A stretch of DNA of 64,000 nucleotides from Verrucomicrobiota bacterium. Lineage in GTDB: Bacteria; Verrucomicrobiota; Verrucomicrobiia; Chthoniobacterales; SZAS-18. A model generated the notes under the pieces. The model made no database searches. It was not told where the DNA came from and saw only the letters and a list, made by a program, of their open reading frames with translations. Shown here in pieces: positions 28,692 to 63,800 of this stretch; positions within the stretch are counted from its first letter, which is position 1, and every line of letters starts with the position of its first letter. The translations under genes and the position numbers were made by a program. Where the stretch lies: contig JANXRG010000033.1 in assembly GCA_025353105.1 (NCBI GenBank), positions 29,349 through 93,348 of the forward strand, given 5' to 3'.

Positions 28692-30107
28692 TCACACGAT
28701 GGCCCGGTGCCGACGACGCCGGCCGCTCGTCTTCGTCGCGATCCAGCCCCAGCAAAGCCCCAGGTACACGGCGACGTAAAGTTGGATGGAAGCGATCTGG
28801 AGGGGGAAATCGACCAGCGCGTGCACGGCGACGCCGGCCAGCGCAAGCAGCACCGCGGGCAGCAGCAGGTCGTGCTGCGAAGCGCCCCCGGCCTCCGGCG
28901 TCCGGTAGTGCTTCACGCCGCGCGCAAAGCCACCAAAAAAAATGATCGACCAAAGCGCTGTGCCGAGTATTCCCCATTCGAGCAGCGTCTGCACGTAATC
29001 GGCGTGGAGGTACCGCCAGATGCCGTCGATTCGATCCCCCAGGAAATCGGTGTAGTACGGAAAGATGGCCTGGAAACAACCGGGACCGAAACCAAAGACG
29101 CCGGCATCGGGCACCGCGCTCACGCCGGCCGACTGCGCCAGGAGCCGCGTGCCAAGTAGACTGCCGGTGCCGAGCTGCCGCACCGTTTCCTGCCAACGTC
29201 CGATCTGGACCTGCAGGCCGATTGCCAGAATCACCATCAGGAGCACGAGCGTCACCGTGCCCAAGCCCCAGGCGAGGGTGCGACGCTGCCGCATCCACGT
29301 GAACGCGAGCAATCCGCGCGCAGGCCAGAGGATCAGGCCGACGGCCAGGGCACCGGCGATAATCTGTCCGGCGCGGGACGTGTTCATCACCGACGCGAGC
29401 GCGAACCCCGCGCCCGATGCAATCCACATCGCGAGCAACAGCGGCGGCGTTCGCCGCGAGAACGCACGCAGCAACGCCGCGCCCGCCGCGGGCAGGCAGA
29501 GATTAAGAAACGCCCCCGCGTTCGCGTGGTAATAGTACGTCGCGAAAAAACTCTTGCTGTACGAATCGGGACCGCGAACCGACGGGGCCTCCCAGAAAAT
29601 TGTCGGCGCCGCTGCCGCTCGCTGCACGACGCCGAGCGCCGCGATCGACGCGCCGGTCAGCGCGATCGTCGTCCACAATCGCAGGCGCCACTCGGACTCG
29701 GCCCCCATCTCGCAGGTGAGGAGCAGCGCGCCAAGCACGAGCGAAAGTCGGATCATGGCGGCGAGCGCCAGCGCCGAATCCACCGCGCCCGGTGCGAACC
29801 CCGCCAGCCCGGGCAGCGGCGCAAAGATCGAAACATCCGGGTCGTAAACCGCCCGCGCATTCAAGGTCATCCACCAGCCCAACGCAAGGATCGCCCCGAC
29901 CACGGACAGCAGCAGGCGGGGAAGATCCCGCAGCCCCCCCATCCCGCCGAACGGGATCGCCAGGAGGCGGACGGCGAGCGCGGCCGCGAGTCCGACGTTG
30001 AGCCAGTCGATCGCCCACAGACGCGTGCTCCCGAACGCCCACGGCGCGAAGACGAGCAGGGCGAGCAGCGCCCAGCGCGACAGCTCGATCAGGGCGCGTG
30101 CAACCAT
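28692..30107 (-). CDS. O-antigen ligase/polymerase family membrane protein
   Basis: A 471-residue polytopic protein with about eleven helices and a large periplasmic loop containing WEAPSVRGPDSYSKSFFATY and GAGFALASVMNTSRAGQI. The loop with a conserved Arg near NTSRAGQ and the later FGFGPGCFQAIFPYY segment match the Wzy/WaaL family. In an EPS cluster it most probably polymerises repeat units or ligates glycan in the periplasm. It ends 1 bp before the GT4 start. Confidence 0.88.
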   Translation of the reverse strand: MVARALIELSRWALLALLVFAPWAFGSTRLWAIDWLNVGLAAALAVRLLAIPFGGMGGLRDLPRLLLSVVGAILALGWWMTLNARAVYDPDVSIFAPLPGLAGFAPGAVDSALALAAMIRLSLVLGALLLTCEMGAESEWRLRLWTTIALTGASIAALGVVQRAAAAPTIFWEAPSVRGPDSYSKSFFATYYYHANAGAFLNLCLPAAGAALLRAFSRRTPPLLLAMWIASGAGFALASVMNTSRAGQIIAGALAVGLILWPARGLLAFTWMRQRRTLAWGLGTVTLVLLMVILAIGLQVQIGRWQETVRQLGTGSLLGTRLLAQSAGVSAVPDAGVFGFGPGCFQAIFPYYTDFLGDRIDGIWRYLHADYVQTLLEWGILGTALWSIIFFGGFARGVKHYRTPEAGGASQHDLLLPAVLLALAGVAVHALVDFPLQIASIQLYVAVYLGLCWGWIATKTSGRRRRHRAIV

Positions 30108-57285: not shown

Positions 57286-57384
57286 CGTTTGTGCTTGCAG
57301 CCAAATTGAACGGAGCGCGCTGTAGCTCGCCATGTCCGTGAACACGATAGCGGCGAGCTTTCGTTGATCGGTGCCGGAGCTCAT
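57265..57384 (-). pseudogene. Class III adenylate cyclase, N-terminal remnant
   Basis: An ATG at 57384 overlaps the stop of the kinase gene (ATGA). The 39-residue frame reads RKLAAIVFTDMASYSAL, the start of a class III nucleotide cyclase catalytic domain (usually VVFTDMVGYSAL), and then runs into the terminal repeat of the 57060-57285 element and stops. Cyclase-TPR genes commonly follow such kinases, so an operon of kinase and cyclase was interrupted. Confidence 0.65.
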
Positions 57385-60011
57385 CGGTCGAGGCCCGTCT
57401 TCTTCAAGAGCGCCTTGAACCGCGGCTCGTTGCGCACGCTGTCATATAGCGGATCGCCATTGATCGCAAAAAGGGAGGGATCCTGCTCTTCAAAGCACCT
57501 CTCCAGCCAATCCAATGCTTTCGCCTTTTCACCGAGCCCCAGATAAACTAACACTCGGGGCGCCGGTGAGACGTATTGCTTCGTCGCCAACTCGTCCAAG
57601 TCGCGAAGGATCTGCTCCGCTTTGGCACGATCACCGGTTGCGCCGTAGACGAATCCGAGTGAACCGACATACCAGGGCAGGTAGTCCAGCGTGGCGGCTT
57701 TTTGAAACTCCGCCAGCGCGTCGACCATATTCCCCTTCCAGAAATAGCACGTGCCTAGGCCCAGGTGGGCATAGGCATTATTCGCATCCAACTCCAATGT
57801 CTTGTTCAGTTGAACAATTGCTTCGTCGTACCGGCGCGCCCATTGCAGAAAAAGCCCGAGGTCGGCATTGAACAAAGGATTCAGTGGATCCAGATCCAAC
57901 GCCTTCTTCACCTTGGCGATCGCGTCATCGAAGCGGCCGTACGCCATCAGGTTCAAGCCATATTGGTCGTACGCCGGGGCCAGGTTGGGATTCAATTCCA
58001 GGGCGCGGTCGAGTTCCTTGTCCGAGCCAGGAAAATCCTCCAACGCGCTAAAGAGAGCCACGGCCAGCGAAAGGTGCGCTTCGGCCAGATTAGGATCGAG
58101 GGCCAGCGCCTTGAGCGCCAGGTCCTTTTCCTTGGCCCAGGCCTCCCGGCCCGACAACAGCTGTCCTCCACACCAGCCATAAGTGTCAGCCAGTCCGCAA
58201 TACGCCAACGCGAACGAGGGATCCATCTGCAGCGCTTGTTCGAAGTAGCGGATCGCGTTCGTCCAGCCAGCCTGCGTAAACTTGGCGAAATGGAAGCGGC
58301 CCAGCAGGTAGAGACGGTAGGCTTCCGGATTCTCGGTCGGTTTTTTTGCCAACGCGCGCGCATCTTCGACGCCAAGCTGCATTTGCAGCGCGCGGACCAC
58401 GCGTTGCGCCACGTCGCTTTGGAGGGCGAGGATGTCCTGCATGTTCCCGTCGTAGGATTCGGACCAAAGATGATAACCATCGGCCACGTTAATGAGCTGG
58501 GCGGTGATCCGAAGCTTGTCGCCGGCCTTGCGCACGCTGCCTTCCAGCACGGTGTCCACGTGCAGTTCCTCGCCGACCTTGCGGAAGATGCCATCTTCGG
58601 TCCGTCCCCTGAACGCGAAGGAGGAGGTGCGTCCCGGCACGCGCAGGCCTCTCACCTTGGCCAGCACGTTGAGCAGTTCTTCCGTCATGCCGTCGCTCAG
58701 ATATTCGTCGCCCTTGTCCGCGCTCAGGTTCACGAACGGCAGGACGGCGATCGCCTTGCGCAGCAGGGCGGGTTGCGGCGCGGGGGCGGGCGTCGCTAGA
58801 GCCGGGGGCGCCCGCGGATCGGTCGTCGCGGGCCGCGGTGTGCCCGTCTGCTTCGTTCCGAAAATCCAATACGACCCAGCACCTGTCAGCATCAGGACGC
58901 CGATTCCGACGGCGGTCCGCCACAGGCTGCCGCGACGAAACGCGACGTCGCGGCCGGGTCCCGCAGAAACCATCGCATCCGATTCCCGCGTGGTCAGTCC
59001 CGGATCGGCGGTCCCATGCTCCCCGGCTTGCATCCGTTCAAGGCAGCGCGCCAGTGCTTGCACGAGTTCGTCGGCGTTCGCAAACCGATTGGCAGGATCC
59101 TTCTCCAGCAGCCGCGCGAGCACCGCCTGCAGACTGGCCGGCAGATGCGCGATGCCGGCGAGCGGCGCCGCCTGGGCCACGTGCTGGTTCAACAACTCCC
59201 GGTGCGTCCGTGCGCGAAAGGGTGGCGCGCCCGTCAGCATTTCCCACAGGATGCAGCCGAGCGAATACTGGTCGGAGCGGCCGTCGATCTCCCCGCGCTC
59301 CTCGCATTGCTCCGGACTCGCGTACAACGCCGTGCCGCGAAAACCGATCGTTTGCGCGTCCAGCTCGGTGCCCAAACGCCCGCCCCCAAAACCGCGCGCC
59401 AGGCCGAAGTCGATGATCTTGATCTGCCACGCGTCGGGATTCGCCTCGACTGGTTGGCCGGATTTCCCGCGGCCGGTCGGAACGATCATCAAGTTGGCCG
59501 GCTTCAGATCGCGATGCACGATCTGCTGCGCATGAATCGCCTCGAGACCGCGCGCGATTTGCAGCGCGAATGAGACCGCCACGCGCGGCGCGATCGCTCC
59601 GCGTGCCCGCAGCCAATCCTGCAACGATTCGCCAGCAATGAACTCCATCGCATAAAAAAGATTCCCCGGCGTCGTGCTGAGAAAGAGCACACTTGCGACG
59701 TTTGGATGGCGCACCCGCGCTGCAGCGCGCGCCTCGCGCAGGAACAGCGCTTTCGCCTTAGGATCGTCGACCTGCCCGGGCGTGATGAGTTTCAGCGCCA
59801 CGTCCACGCGCAGTTGTTCATCGAACGCCTTGTAGGTGACCCCCATCGCGCCGCGGCCGAGTTCCCACGTCGATCCATTGGGACGCCGAAGAACGCAATA
59901 CTGCGCGAATTTCAAATCGGAACCGACCAATTCCGCAGGTTGGGGTTCATCCGCCACGGCTGAAGCATAGTCGCTTTGGGCGCCATGGGAATCCTTCTCG
60001 TTCAGCAACAT
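57381..60011 (-). CDS. Ser/Thr protein kinase with TPR sensor domain
   Basis: Start at the ATG at 60011 (MLLNEKDSHGAQSDYASAV), giving 876 residues; the longer ORF-track start is not supported. Kinase domain: WELGRGAMGVTYKAFDEQL (P-loop), DVALKLITPG (Lys), IVHRDLKPANLMIV (catalytic Asp), KIIDFGLARG. A transmembrane helix (VGIGVLMLTGAGSYWIFG) precedes a periplasmic FlgO-like part (IAVLPFVNLSADKGDEYLSD) and several TPRs. Receptor-like kinases of this type are common in Verrucomicrobia and Acidobacteria. The cyclase remnant overlaps its stop. Confidence 0.93.
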   Translation of the reverse strand: MLLNEKDSHGAQSDYASAVADEPQPAELVGSDLKFAQYCVLRRPNGSTWELGRGAMGVTYKAFDEQLRVDVALKLITPGQVDDPKAKALFLREARAAARVRHPNVASVLFLSTTPGNLFYAMEFIAGESLQDWLRARGAIAPRVAVSFALQIARGLEAIHAQQIVHRDLKPANLMIVPTGRGKSGQPVEANPDAWQIKIIDFGLARGFGGGRLGTELDAQTIGFRGTALYASPEQCEERGEIDGRSDQYSLGCILWEMLTGAPPFRARTHRELLNQHVAQAAPLAGIAHLPASLQAVLARLLEKDPANRFANADELVQALARCLERMQAGEHGTADPGLTTRESDAMVSAGPGRDVAFRRGSLWRTAVGIGVLMLTGAGSYWIFGTKQTGTPRPATTDPRAPPALATPAPAPQPALLRKAIAVLPFVNLSADKGDEYLSDGMTEELLNVLAKVRGLRVPGRTSSFAFRGRTEDGIFRKVGEELHVDTVLEGSVRKAGDKLRITAQLINVADGYHLWSESYDGNMQDILALQSDVAQRVVRALQMQLGVEDARALAKKPTENPEAYRLYLLGRFHFAKFTQAGWTNAIRYFEQALQMDPSFALAYCGLADTYGWCGGQLLSGREAWAKEKDLALKALALDPNLAEAHLSLAVALFSALEDFPGSDKELDRALELNPNLAPAYDQYGLNLMAYGRFDDAIAKVKKALDLDPLNPLFNADLGLFLQWARRYDEAIVQLNKTLELDANNAYAHLGLGTCYFWKGNMVDALAEFQKAATLDYLPWYVGSLGFVYGATGDRAKAEQILRDLDELATKQYVSPAPRVLVYLGLGEKAKALDWLERCFEEQDPSLFAINGDPLYDSVRNEPRFKALLKKTGLDR

Positions 60012-60762
60012 CGCTCGCCAGATGCTGGATATTCGGAAACGCGCGCGTCCGCCGGCGTTCAGCCGACGAAGGAGGTTGTCGCGCATTTGTACCGCGATGA
60101 CATAACCGCCTCTGAGATCGGTGAAAGCAAGGCAACCAGACGCTCCAGTGATTGATGACGCCGTCGACGCCCTCGTGCGCGATGCGCGCATGCTCCTGAT
60201 ACTTCCTGGCCCCGGAGGCTGCGGAATACACCCGAAAACGATATGGCCGGGTCTGGGGCATTCCCATGTATGCTGCCGCTGAATTCGGCGCTTACGGTCG
60301 CGTGGAAGCCCGTCACCATTACCCCAAGACGTGGCCATTGGTGCGGGTATCGGCATTGCCAGCAGCTTTCTTTTTACGCGTCCCTTCGTCGGATTCAACG
60401 TTCAGCCAACGGTCGGCAAGAAATCGGCCGGCGTGACGTTCTCAATGGAATTCTGACCCGACAAACATCCTACTGCTCAGCGGTCGGCGTCGCTTCCGGA
60501 ATTACGGGCTTCCCTTCGCCTCGCCGGTCTCTCGATTTGGGACGTTGAATGGAGTTCGCGCATTTCCCGATGGATCACAAACCAATAGCCACACAGCTGG
60601 CCAAGAGCTCATTCCCGTCGTGGAGGTGAAACTTGGTCTCTACTCAAACATATTGATTACGCCTGGGCAAGAAGCCCTGCGTGATTCGTTGCGCCCGTTA
60701 TAACTTCAGCACCGGACCGCCATATTCGGACCCGCTTGGAATGGTTTGCCCTTAATGAACGA
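60012..60762. other. Degenerate ~750-bp intergenic region with one gene tail
   Basis: No intact gene. A plus-strand tail is annotated separately (60316-60456). ORFs 59947-60267, 60059-60319 and 60243-60548 lack domain features. The remainder shows no repeat or RNA I could identify. Confidence 0.5.
60316..60456 (+). pseudogene. C-terminal tail of an outer-membrane beta-barrel protein
   Basis: A frame without start codon reads GIGIASSFLFTRPFVGFNVQ and ends VGKKSAGVTFSMEF with a C-terminal Phe, the pattern of the last strand of a beta-barrel. Upstream sequence is not in frame. I infer the remnant of a deleted porin-like gene. Confidence 0.35.
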
Positions 60763-61350: not shown

Positions 61351-61520
61351 AAATTGAAGAATGACAGGGGAGAACGACGACGGTGCGCATCGCGCCCGAG
61401 CGCCGGTCGGCCGCCGGGAACGAATGAAGGACGTCCTCGTGTCTCCGACAATTTTGGATTAACCGCTGCTGCGGAGATCGGCGTATTTCGGCGTACCCGT
61501 TCTTGAAATAGTTGAAATAG

Positions 61521-61701
61521 GGGTCGGGACATCAAATATCATACTATTGGGCTTGACGTGGCGTTGGGCGCTGCCCTTCACTGCGAAACATGCCCCGCCA
61601 ACTGAAATACGAAATAAGGGTCGGGACATCAAATATCATACTATTGGGCTTGACGTGGCGTTGGGCGCTGCCCTTCACTGCGAAACATGCCCCGCCAACT
61701 G
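61521..61701. repeat. 97-bp tandem duplication at the left end of the RAYT element
   Basis: Bases 61521-61604 and 61618-61701 are identical over 84 bp, offset by 97 bp. The unit contains the left inverted repeat, the presumed promoter and the first codons of the transposase (ATGCCCCGCCAACTG). The first copy's ATG (61590) is out of frame with the second (61687), so only the second drives the full protein. Confidence 0.95.
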
Positions 61702-62799
61702 CGCCTCGAACTGGCCGGTGGGCATTATCACGTGATGGCGCGGGGCGACCGGCGGGAGCCCATCTTCCTCAACGTCGCGGACCGGGAGGATTTCGTGGGC
61801 CTGCTGGGCGAGGTCTGTCAGCGCCACGGGTGGCGGGTGCACGCCTGGGTGCTCATGGGCAACCATTACCACCTGCTGCTGGAAACTCCGCAACCCAACC
61901 TCGTCAGCGGAATGAGTCAGTTGCAGCAGACGTACACGCAACGCTTCAACCGGCGGCACCGGCAGAGCGGACATCTTTTCGGCGGCCGCTACAAGGCAGT
62001 GCTCGTGGAGGGTGATCTCGAAGGGCCAGATCAGCGCGCGCGTCTGGAGCGAAGCCGGGTGCGTGAGCGGAGCGATTATTTCACGATCGTAGCGGACTAC
62101 ATTCACCTGAATCCGGTGCGTGCCGGCTTGGTGAGCTTGGGCCGGGGTAAAGGCCTGATGGGCTACGCGTGGAGTAGCCTGGTGCAGGCGTATGCGCGAC
62201 CGGCGAGCCGGCGAGCGCGGTGGATGGAAGTGGGCCCGGTGCTGGCGGGCTACGAGCAAAGCGACACGCCGCGGGGCCGCCAGCGGATGATGACCGAGTT
62301 GGAGGGGAAGGCGCGGGCGGAGGCAGCGCAGAAGGTGGGGCTGAGGGTGCCGGAGGGCCAGAGCCTGCAGTCGACGTTGCGCCGGGGGTGGTACTTTGGG
62401 AGTCAGGAATTTGGAGAGCGGACGCTGCGGCTGGTGGGCAAGGTCGGGGCGAAGTTGAGTCGGAAGGGCGAGCATTACGAGGGGGCGCGCGTGGCACGCG
62501 ACCACGGCGAGAAGGAAGCCGAGCGCTTGAGTACGTTGGGGCTCAAGGAGGTCGCGCGCCCTGGGAGTGGGAGTGCCCGGAGACGCAAACGGAAGGGGCG
62601 TGCGGTCGGGGAGCGTCTGGCGGCGGCAGCGGTGGCGAGCGTGGTGCGCGAACGCACCTCGGTGTCGGTGGCGTGGGTGGCGCAACGATTTAGATTTGGC
62701 AGCGCGGGCAACGCGTCGCAACAGATGTACCACTGTCGGCAGCAGGCGACGCAGGACCGAGCCCTCGCGTCGCTGCTCGCCCGCCTGCGCGCACTATGA
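61687..62799 (+). CDS. REP-associated tyrosine transposase (Y1_Tnp/RAYT)
   Basis: A 370-residue protein. GGHYHVMARGDRREPIFL, HAWVLMGNHYHLLLETPQP (HUH-type His pair: HYHLL) and TQRFNRRHRQSGHLFGGRYK with a catalytic Tyr downstream match the Y1 transposase fold of RAYT proteins. The C-terminal 170 residues are basic and helical, longer than the shortest RAYTs, and include RERTSVSVAWVAQRFRFGSA, an HTH-like segment. Such proteins are linked to mobilisation of REP/REPIN palindromes. Intact. Confidence 0.93.
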   Translation: MPRQLRLELAGGHYHVMARGDRREPIFLNVADREDFVGLLGEVCQRHGWRVHAWVLMGNHYHLLLETPQPNLVSGMSQLQQTYTQRFNRRHRQSGHLFGGRYKAVLVEGDLEGPDQRARLERSRVRERSDYFTIVADYIHLNPVRAGLVSLGRGKGLMGYAWSSLVQAYARPASRRARWMEVGPVLAGYEQSDTPRGRQRMMTELEGKARAEAAQKVGLRVPEGQSLQSTLRRGWYFGSQEFGERTLRLVGKVGAKLSRKGEHYEGARVARDHGEKEAERLSTLGLKEVARPGSGSARRRKRKGRAVGERLAAAAVASVVRERTSVSVAWVAQRFRFGSAGNASQQMYHCRQQATQDRALASLLARLRAL

Positions 62800-62902
62800 T
62801 ATCTGATGTCCTGACCCCTATTCTGAGCTTTCGCGACGTGAGCGCCGAGCGCGTCAGGAGAGCTTCCGCCATCCTGTGCTGCTCTCGGGAGGCAGAGATG
62901 CG

Positions 62903-63112
62903 GTGAGATACTTTGATTCAGGCCGTGTTATCACGATCGAGGTGGAGTGGATCGGAGGCAACAGGTTCCAAGTTTACAGCAAGGGCATAGTCCAATGGGA
63001 AGGGCAGCCGGAGTCTTCAGCAGTTACCAACGAAGAAAAGAAGAATATTCTTGAGATGCTGTCTAAGCACTACAGCAAGAGGCGAAAAATCCTTGTCGAG
63101 TCTCCAGGCTGA
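62903..63112 (+). CDS. Small hypothetical protein next to attC
   Basis: A GTG at 62903 follows GGGAGG by about 10 bp, giving a 69-residue product: VITIEVEWIGGNRFQVYSKG with a charged helical tail (EEKKNILEMLSKHYSKRRKI). The ORF-track start at 62876 is less likely. No family recognised. It ends 15 bp before the attC core, as a gene cassette ORF would. Confidence 0.6.
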   Translation: MRYFDSGRVITIEVEWIGGNRFQVYSKGIVQWEGQPESSAVTNEEKKNILEMLSKHYSKRRKILVESPG

Positions 63113-63127
63113 TAGCACGGTTCCGCC

Positions 63128-63229
63128 GCCTAACCAGGCGCTGCACCTAACCGATTCGGCGGAGGGATGTCTGCGCCGATTTTGGAGTTGCGTTCCGCCT
63201 CATCGGCAGGTGAGCTTGGGTCGTTAGGC
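63128..63229 (+). other. attC recombination site of an integron gene cassette
   Basis: GCCTAAC (63128-63134) and GTTAGGC (63223-63229) are exact complements, 102 bp apart overall. Inside, CTGCACCTAACCGATTCGGC on one side matches the complement of GCCTCATCGGCAGGTGAGC on the other with a few unpaired bases, so the single strand folds into the imperfect stem with R and L boxes typical of attC. The next ORF starts 7 bp after the core. Confidence 0.8.
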
Positions 63230-63236
63230 GATTCGC

Positions 63237-63800
63237 ATGCCTTCACTCGATGCACGATTGATTGTTGCTGATCTCTCTTCGGGTGATTCGGCTCGCTTTG
63301 AGGATGCAACTCTGATCATTTCGGAGATCGAAGCCGACTCCAAAATCGATCCACAGCCGTTTGTCGAATCGCTCTTTTCGGAGAATGACAAGGTCGTCTT
63401 CTGGTCCGAAATTGCGCTTGAGCATCTCGGAGTCCGTGCGCAACAGAGTATCCCTGCGCTATTGACCGTTCTGGAGCGCGGCTCTCCTCTTTTGCGACAA
63501 GCCGCTGTCAAAACTCTTGCCCGAGTAGGGCCGTGCGATGGTCCCGCTAGAGAGGGTATTTTCAAAGCATTCGGCGATGCGAGTTCGTTTGTGCGCCGCG
63601 AAGCACTTCAGGCCTGCATCCACCTGCACGGGCACTCCCGACGCGAGCTTGATTTGATTTCAGCGATGTCGGCCGATCCCGATGAGGCAGTTTCGTCTTG
63701 GAGCGAGATCGCATTACGAAACATTCGCCTAGGCGATCTCCAATCGCCTAACCCCTATGAAGGGTGTCAAGCGTGGCAGGCGATATTGAGTTGGGGGTGA
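63237..63800 (+). CDS. HEAT-repeat protein, cassette gene
   Basis: A 187-residue protein of helical repeats: IALEHLGVRAQQSIPALLTV, SPLLRQAAVKTLARVGPCDG, ASSFVRREALQACIHLHGHS and DEAVSSWSEIALRNIRLGD are successive HEAT-like units. It begins 7 bp after the attC core, with no promoter of its own. Function is unknown. Another R-box-like GCCTAAC lies at 63746-63752 within the ORF. Confidence 0.8.
   Translation: MPSLDARLIVADLSSGDSARFEDATLIISEIEADSKIDPQPFVESLFSENDKVVFWSEIALEHLGVRAQQSIPALLTVLERGSPLLRQAAVKTLARVGPCDGPAREGIFKAFGDASSFVRREALQACIHLHGHSRRELDLISAMSADPDEAVSSWSEIALRNIRLGDLQSPNPYEGCQAWQAILSWG

Follow-up and report, generated by a model that had tools for sequence, protein, structure and literature searches.

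The window, i.e. the whole stretch of 64,000 nucleotides analysed here, corresponds to positions 29349–93348 of contig C16, and its right edge is the end of that contig. At this right end, a recombination site of the attC type was located between two short ORFs, which are preceded on the left by a transposase element. The features are as follows.

60515–60550, + strand: possible decayed right half of an attC, TTCGCCTCGCCGGTCTCTCGATTTGGGACGTTGAAT (right-half matrix; tentative)
61516–62822, + strand: REP-associated Y1 transposase element with inverted ends of about 28 bp (PF01797, NF047646), directly left of cassette 1
62876–63112, + strand: cassette 1 ORF, 78 aa (weak Imm74-like match)
63128–63229, + strand: attC recombination site, 102 bp (covariance models R1 and R2, covariation)
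63128–63134, + strand: R'' box GCCTAAC (sequence; pairs with R')
63140–63152, + strand: L'' box GCTGCACCTAACC (alignments, pair count, box scan)
63205–63215, + strand: L' box GGCAGGTGAGC (sequence, box scan, pair count)
63223–63229, + strand: R' box GTTAGGC (sequence)
63237–63800, + strand: cassette 2 ORF, 187 aa, with HEAT repeats (HEAT_2, E = 8e-11, 42.5 bits)
63746–63752, + strand: R''-like GCCTAAC within the HEAT ORF, at its 3' end; a further attC may begin here

An earlier note on this DNA had described GCCTAAC...GTTAGGC as a 102-bp attC site with an imperfectly paired interior, and this description was confirmed. These boxes are complementary at 7/7 positions and fit RYYYAAC and GTTRRRY, respectively; the crossover is presumed to fall after the first G of the R' box. 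Box scan, pair count and covariation all revealed an inner L''/L' stem whose two extrahelical bases lie on one side, a feature by which attC sites are recognised. These bases are G63143 and A63149 of the L'' box, which correspond to C and T, 5 nt apart, on the bottom strand. It was also noticed that the site folds better than shuffled sequences on both strands (z = −2.35 and −3.00). The layout proposed in the earlier note was borne out as well, since the site begins 15 bp after the stop of the small ORF (63112) and ends 7 bp before the ATG of the HEAT ORF (63237).

Similar sites were gathered from other contigs of the same genome, nine sites were aligned and the proposed pairs were counted. 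For the R''/R' stem together with the 12-bp L''/L' stem, 94.2% of the cells were paired, versus 19–36% when the partners were slid by 1 to 3 columns, and 14 cells had changed on both sides, versus 5.7 in shuffles (0/500 as high). Two sequence types could be distinguished, type A (the window site, C79:74 and C25:795) and type B (CACTGGAGCGAACC...GGTCGCTCAGTTTG), which differ at several L-stem pairs in a compensatory manner. In both types, the L'' arm has two unpaired bases; read on the bottom strand, one is a T and the other, for the majority of sites, a C, with a distance of five bases between them, and some type-B sites allow two adjacent placements of the second base. Close relatives of the window attC are on C79 and C25, with 86–88% identity. 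With a simple box scanner, only sites whose boxes are best preserved were picked up.

A covariance model trained on nine sites (R1) scored the window attC, itself a training member, at 103.8 bits. To guard against circularity, a second model (R2) was built from five type-B sites of C25 and C75 only. Although not trained on the window site, R2 detected 63128–63229 with 76.8 bits (E = 1.5e-17), the next-best match in the window having 13.5 bits; by this result, the window attC stands far beyond chance. A search of the window against Rfam gave no match, and therefore the identity of the attC rests on the models built in this analysis. The extrahelical pattern here is T-N5-C, as opposed to T-N6-G, the pattern most efficiently excised in published assays, in which T-N5-C gave weak excision by IntI1 (PMC3053210). 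Judged by its sequence, the window attC would thus be a plausible, not an assured, substrate for recombination.

The cassette 1 ORF may start at GTG 62876 (78 aa) or at GTG 62903 (69 aa), the latter being the start coordinate used in the earlier note. Its similarity to Imm74 (PF15603) had an E value of 1.3e-4 and a score of 22.5 bits, below the cut-off of 27.1, whereas the HEAT_2 match of cassette 2 was above the cut-off. The previous statement that neither ORF has a known function has to be modified by these two matches. Neither ORF matched PADLOC, and a search of 196 other genomes of the order detected no homologue of either at the thresholds used, which is what captured cassettes would be expected to show. 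Relatives of the HEAT ORF sought in plasmids and viral contigs were not found.

On the left, the transposase element carries a Y1 transposase gene at 61687–62799 (PF01797, E = 9e-11; NF047646, E = 7e-17) between inverted ends at 61516–61543 and 62795–62822, and it is not part of the cassette machinery. Its left end shows a tandem duplication of about 100 bp (61504–61701). That an older attC had been split by this element (CTGAGCTT at 62823) was considered; the models did not support it, and we make no such claim. Further to the left, the segment 60515–60550 ranked second in the window with a right-half matrix made from 11 sites, scoring 22.0 against a maximum of 21.2 in 20 simulated windows; with only 12.8 bits in R1, it is possibly a relic of an attC. 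It was also observed that 57381–60398 on the minus strand encodes a Kinase/TPR-type protein of 1005 aa, which belongs to a large paralogous family, for which 43 matches were listed in this genome; as these are six-frame pieces, the number of genes is lower. Because this family has many copies, the kinase gene to the left of the array gave no information in an empty-site comparison.

On the right, the array cannot be followed directly, because C16 ends at the window edge, where its connection with any of the other array contigs is lost. Following the full attC, C16 has a lone R''-like box 0.6 kb further (63746–63752) in a region resembling C25:1748–1806, which lies just ahead of a C25 attC; no right half was recognisable between this box and the contig end, and neither R1 nor R2 matched there. 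Breakage of the contig at a repeated insertion sequence was rejected, as the last 246 bases of the window are unique in the genome.

Across the whole genome, the 15 best R1 matches, all of at least 33 bits and nine of them training members, were distributed over C16 (1), C25 (5), C75 (5), C79 (3) and C29 (1). Those on C25, C75 and C79 form related arrays of 3 to 5 sites standing at the ends of the contigs. Contig C99 probably also ends in a related array, its start being the R''-L'' portion of a further attC on the minus strand. The adjacent cassettes C79:215–919 and C79:1098–2246 encode one TIR protein each, one being a full-length match to ThsB of PADLOC (E = 1e-118) and the other containing a CAP12/Pycsar-type TIR domain, and an OmdA/DUF1905 protein follows the last C79 attC. 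In C25, a HicA/HicB toxin-antitoxin pair (367–800) constitutes one cassette between the attC sites at 247–351 and 795–896. Integrons commonly carry cassettes with toxin-antitoxin or phage-related genes (PMC8618304). Outside arrays, isolated and frequently degenerate attC-like sites were also observed (C29:15612, C51:26123, C15:27799, C111:37363, C37:8464, C59:6234 and C69:10440); many of these scattered sites share a right half like CTTTACTTTCCGCCTCGTCGGTCGCTC, and they are possibly solitary cassettes or relics of old arrays.

A search for intI, as suggested in the earlier note, revealed one full-length integron integrase in the assembly, at C50:47–1060 on the plus strand (TIGR02249, 419.5 bits, cut-off 265), with no TIGR02249 match on C16 and none above the cut-off in control genomes. 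The gene is at a contig edge; C50 ends 46 bases before the first listed intI start, so that the attI side is cut off. An alignment of the protein with 2A3V, a Vibrio integron integrase listed as IntI4, covers 309 residues (E = 1e-82) and takes in the catalytic R..HxxR..H..Y as well as the IntI-specific insert. Among the residues listed as contacting the extrahelical bases (PMC3053210), P232, H240 and H241 appear conserved in this alignment. Q145, K209, Y210 and W219 likewise appear conserved, and W157 is read as R. Tyrosine recombinases of C99, C15 and C61 were rejected as IntI, having at most 81.9 bits with TIGR02249 versus 419.5 for C50, and that of C10 was rejected for having no match among the TIGR02249 matches listed.

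The R2 score, the covarying stems and the sister arrays bear out the earlier proposal of an attC at the margin of a cassette array, and we put at roughly 0.93 the probability that 63128–63229 is an attC linking two cassettes at the left margin of an array that continues past the contig end. The C16 cassettes point rightwards, so whichever way intI faces, it and attI would belong on the left side of the array. An integrase beyond the right edge, as one option of the earlier note had it, is therefore unlikely, the intact intI being on C50. Since intI is missing from the left side and C50 carries the only full IntI found, the other option, an integrase-less array (CALIN), is the better of the two, and we regard the array as probably a CALIN, the genome having its intact IntI on another contig. 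Sorted by direction, the contig ends comprise three array starts (C50 with intI, C16 and C99) and three array ends (C25, C75 and C79), a count that, as inferred from a draft assembly, fits one integron plus two CALINs.

It is unlikely, though worth weighing, that the array is a dead relic with fixed cassettes and an attC that is no longer a substrate. The lack of intI alongside the C16 array, a cassette 2 attC that is not recognisable and the diverged attC-like remnants elsewhere in the genome are consistent with this, but the R boxes of the window attC are perfect, its L stem is nearly intact, and it has the close relatives on C79 and C25. Rather improbable, in our view, is a complete integron in which C16 and C50 were one element, split by assembly breaks, by an inversion or by inserted DNA, for instance the transposase element. 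An intact IntI whose attI side is cut off at the C50 edge would agree with it, and CALINs are reported to be over-called in draft assemblies because near-identical attC sites break contigs (PMC9024848); against it, the C16 cassettes read away from chromosomal sequence lacking intI, with the only full IntI found on C50, and the tally of starts and ends points to one integron plus two CALINs. Another inverted repeat resembling attC, e.g. a terminator or a REP-like hairpin of the nearby transposase, is hardly tenable, for although such transposases act on hairpins (PMC8266576) and one adjoins the site, its element has unrelated inverted ends of its own, the site has the same-side extrahelical bases and the cassette layout, and this reading is refuted in practice by the covariation, the genome-wide R1 matches and the score with the R2 model from other contigs.

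In the cell, the bottom strand of the attC would fold into a hairpin, which IntI would cut at the R box and recombine with attI or another attC. Each unit of ORF plus attC could then be excised and re-inserted as a circle. If the array is a CALIN, its cassettes could be mobilised in trans by the C50 IntI. A wider and quite speculative proposal is that one IntI serves three separate arrays of one chromosome, and perhaps the scattered single attC sites as well, in trans via T-N5-C hairpins, and that the arrays jointly hold a reserve of genes for defence and immunity (ThsB-like TIR, CAP12-like TIR, HicAB and possibly Imm74).

Integrons have already been listed for Verrucomicrobiota among many phyla (PMC8618304). 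Of 57 related genomes (this genome included), 20 had an IntI above the cut-off, and R1 matches were present in 7/7 genomes of the family. In the same-family genome G019 (C229), eight attC sites run away from an adjoining divergent intI in the textbook arrangement; these belong to the same attC family by R1 (46.8–59.5 bits), and the difference from the window array is that intI lies directly beside the array there. In the same-genus genome G014 (C70), six weaker attC sites (19–35 bits) share the strand of intI and follow it downstream, an order opposite to the usual divergent one.

The window array resembles a CALIN in having cassettes of attC plus ORF without an adjacent intI and with intI elsewhere in the genome. 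It differs in that only one complete attC can be seen, fewer than the two attC sites per 4 kb or so that define a cassette array or CALIN, because C16 ends. With sedentary chromosomal integrons, such as the Vibrio cholerae superintegron and the Xanthomonas integrons, the system shares an IntI gene, a family of similar attC sites, and cassettes with toxin-antitoxin and defence-type genes, whereas it is smaller as far as seen, is split into several arrays and has an IntI 45–56% identical to the 80 nearest relatives found in other genomes. The window array is thus a further example of a well-known gene-capture system, not a new kind of system, and it leaves the understanding of how integrons work unchanged. 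It illustrates the break-up of cassette arrays at contig ends in draft genomes, and for a probably uncultured lineage it documents a clear integron system that has an intact integrase and an attC family of its own. The two captured window genes and the two TIR-type genes of the sister array are candidates for defence functions.
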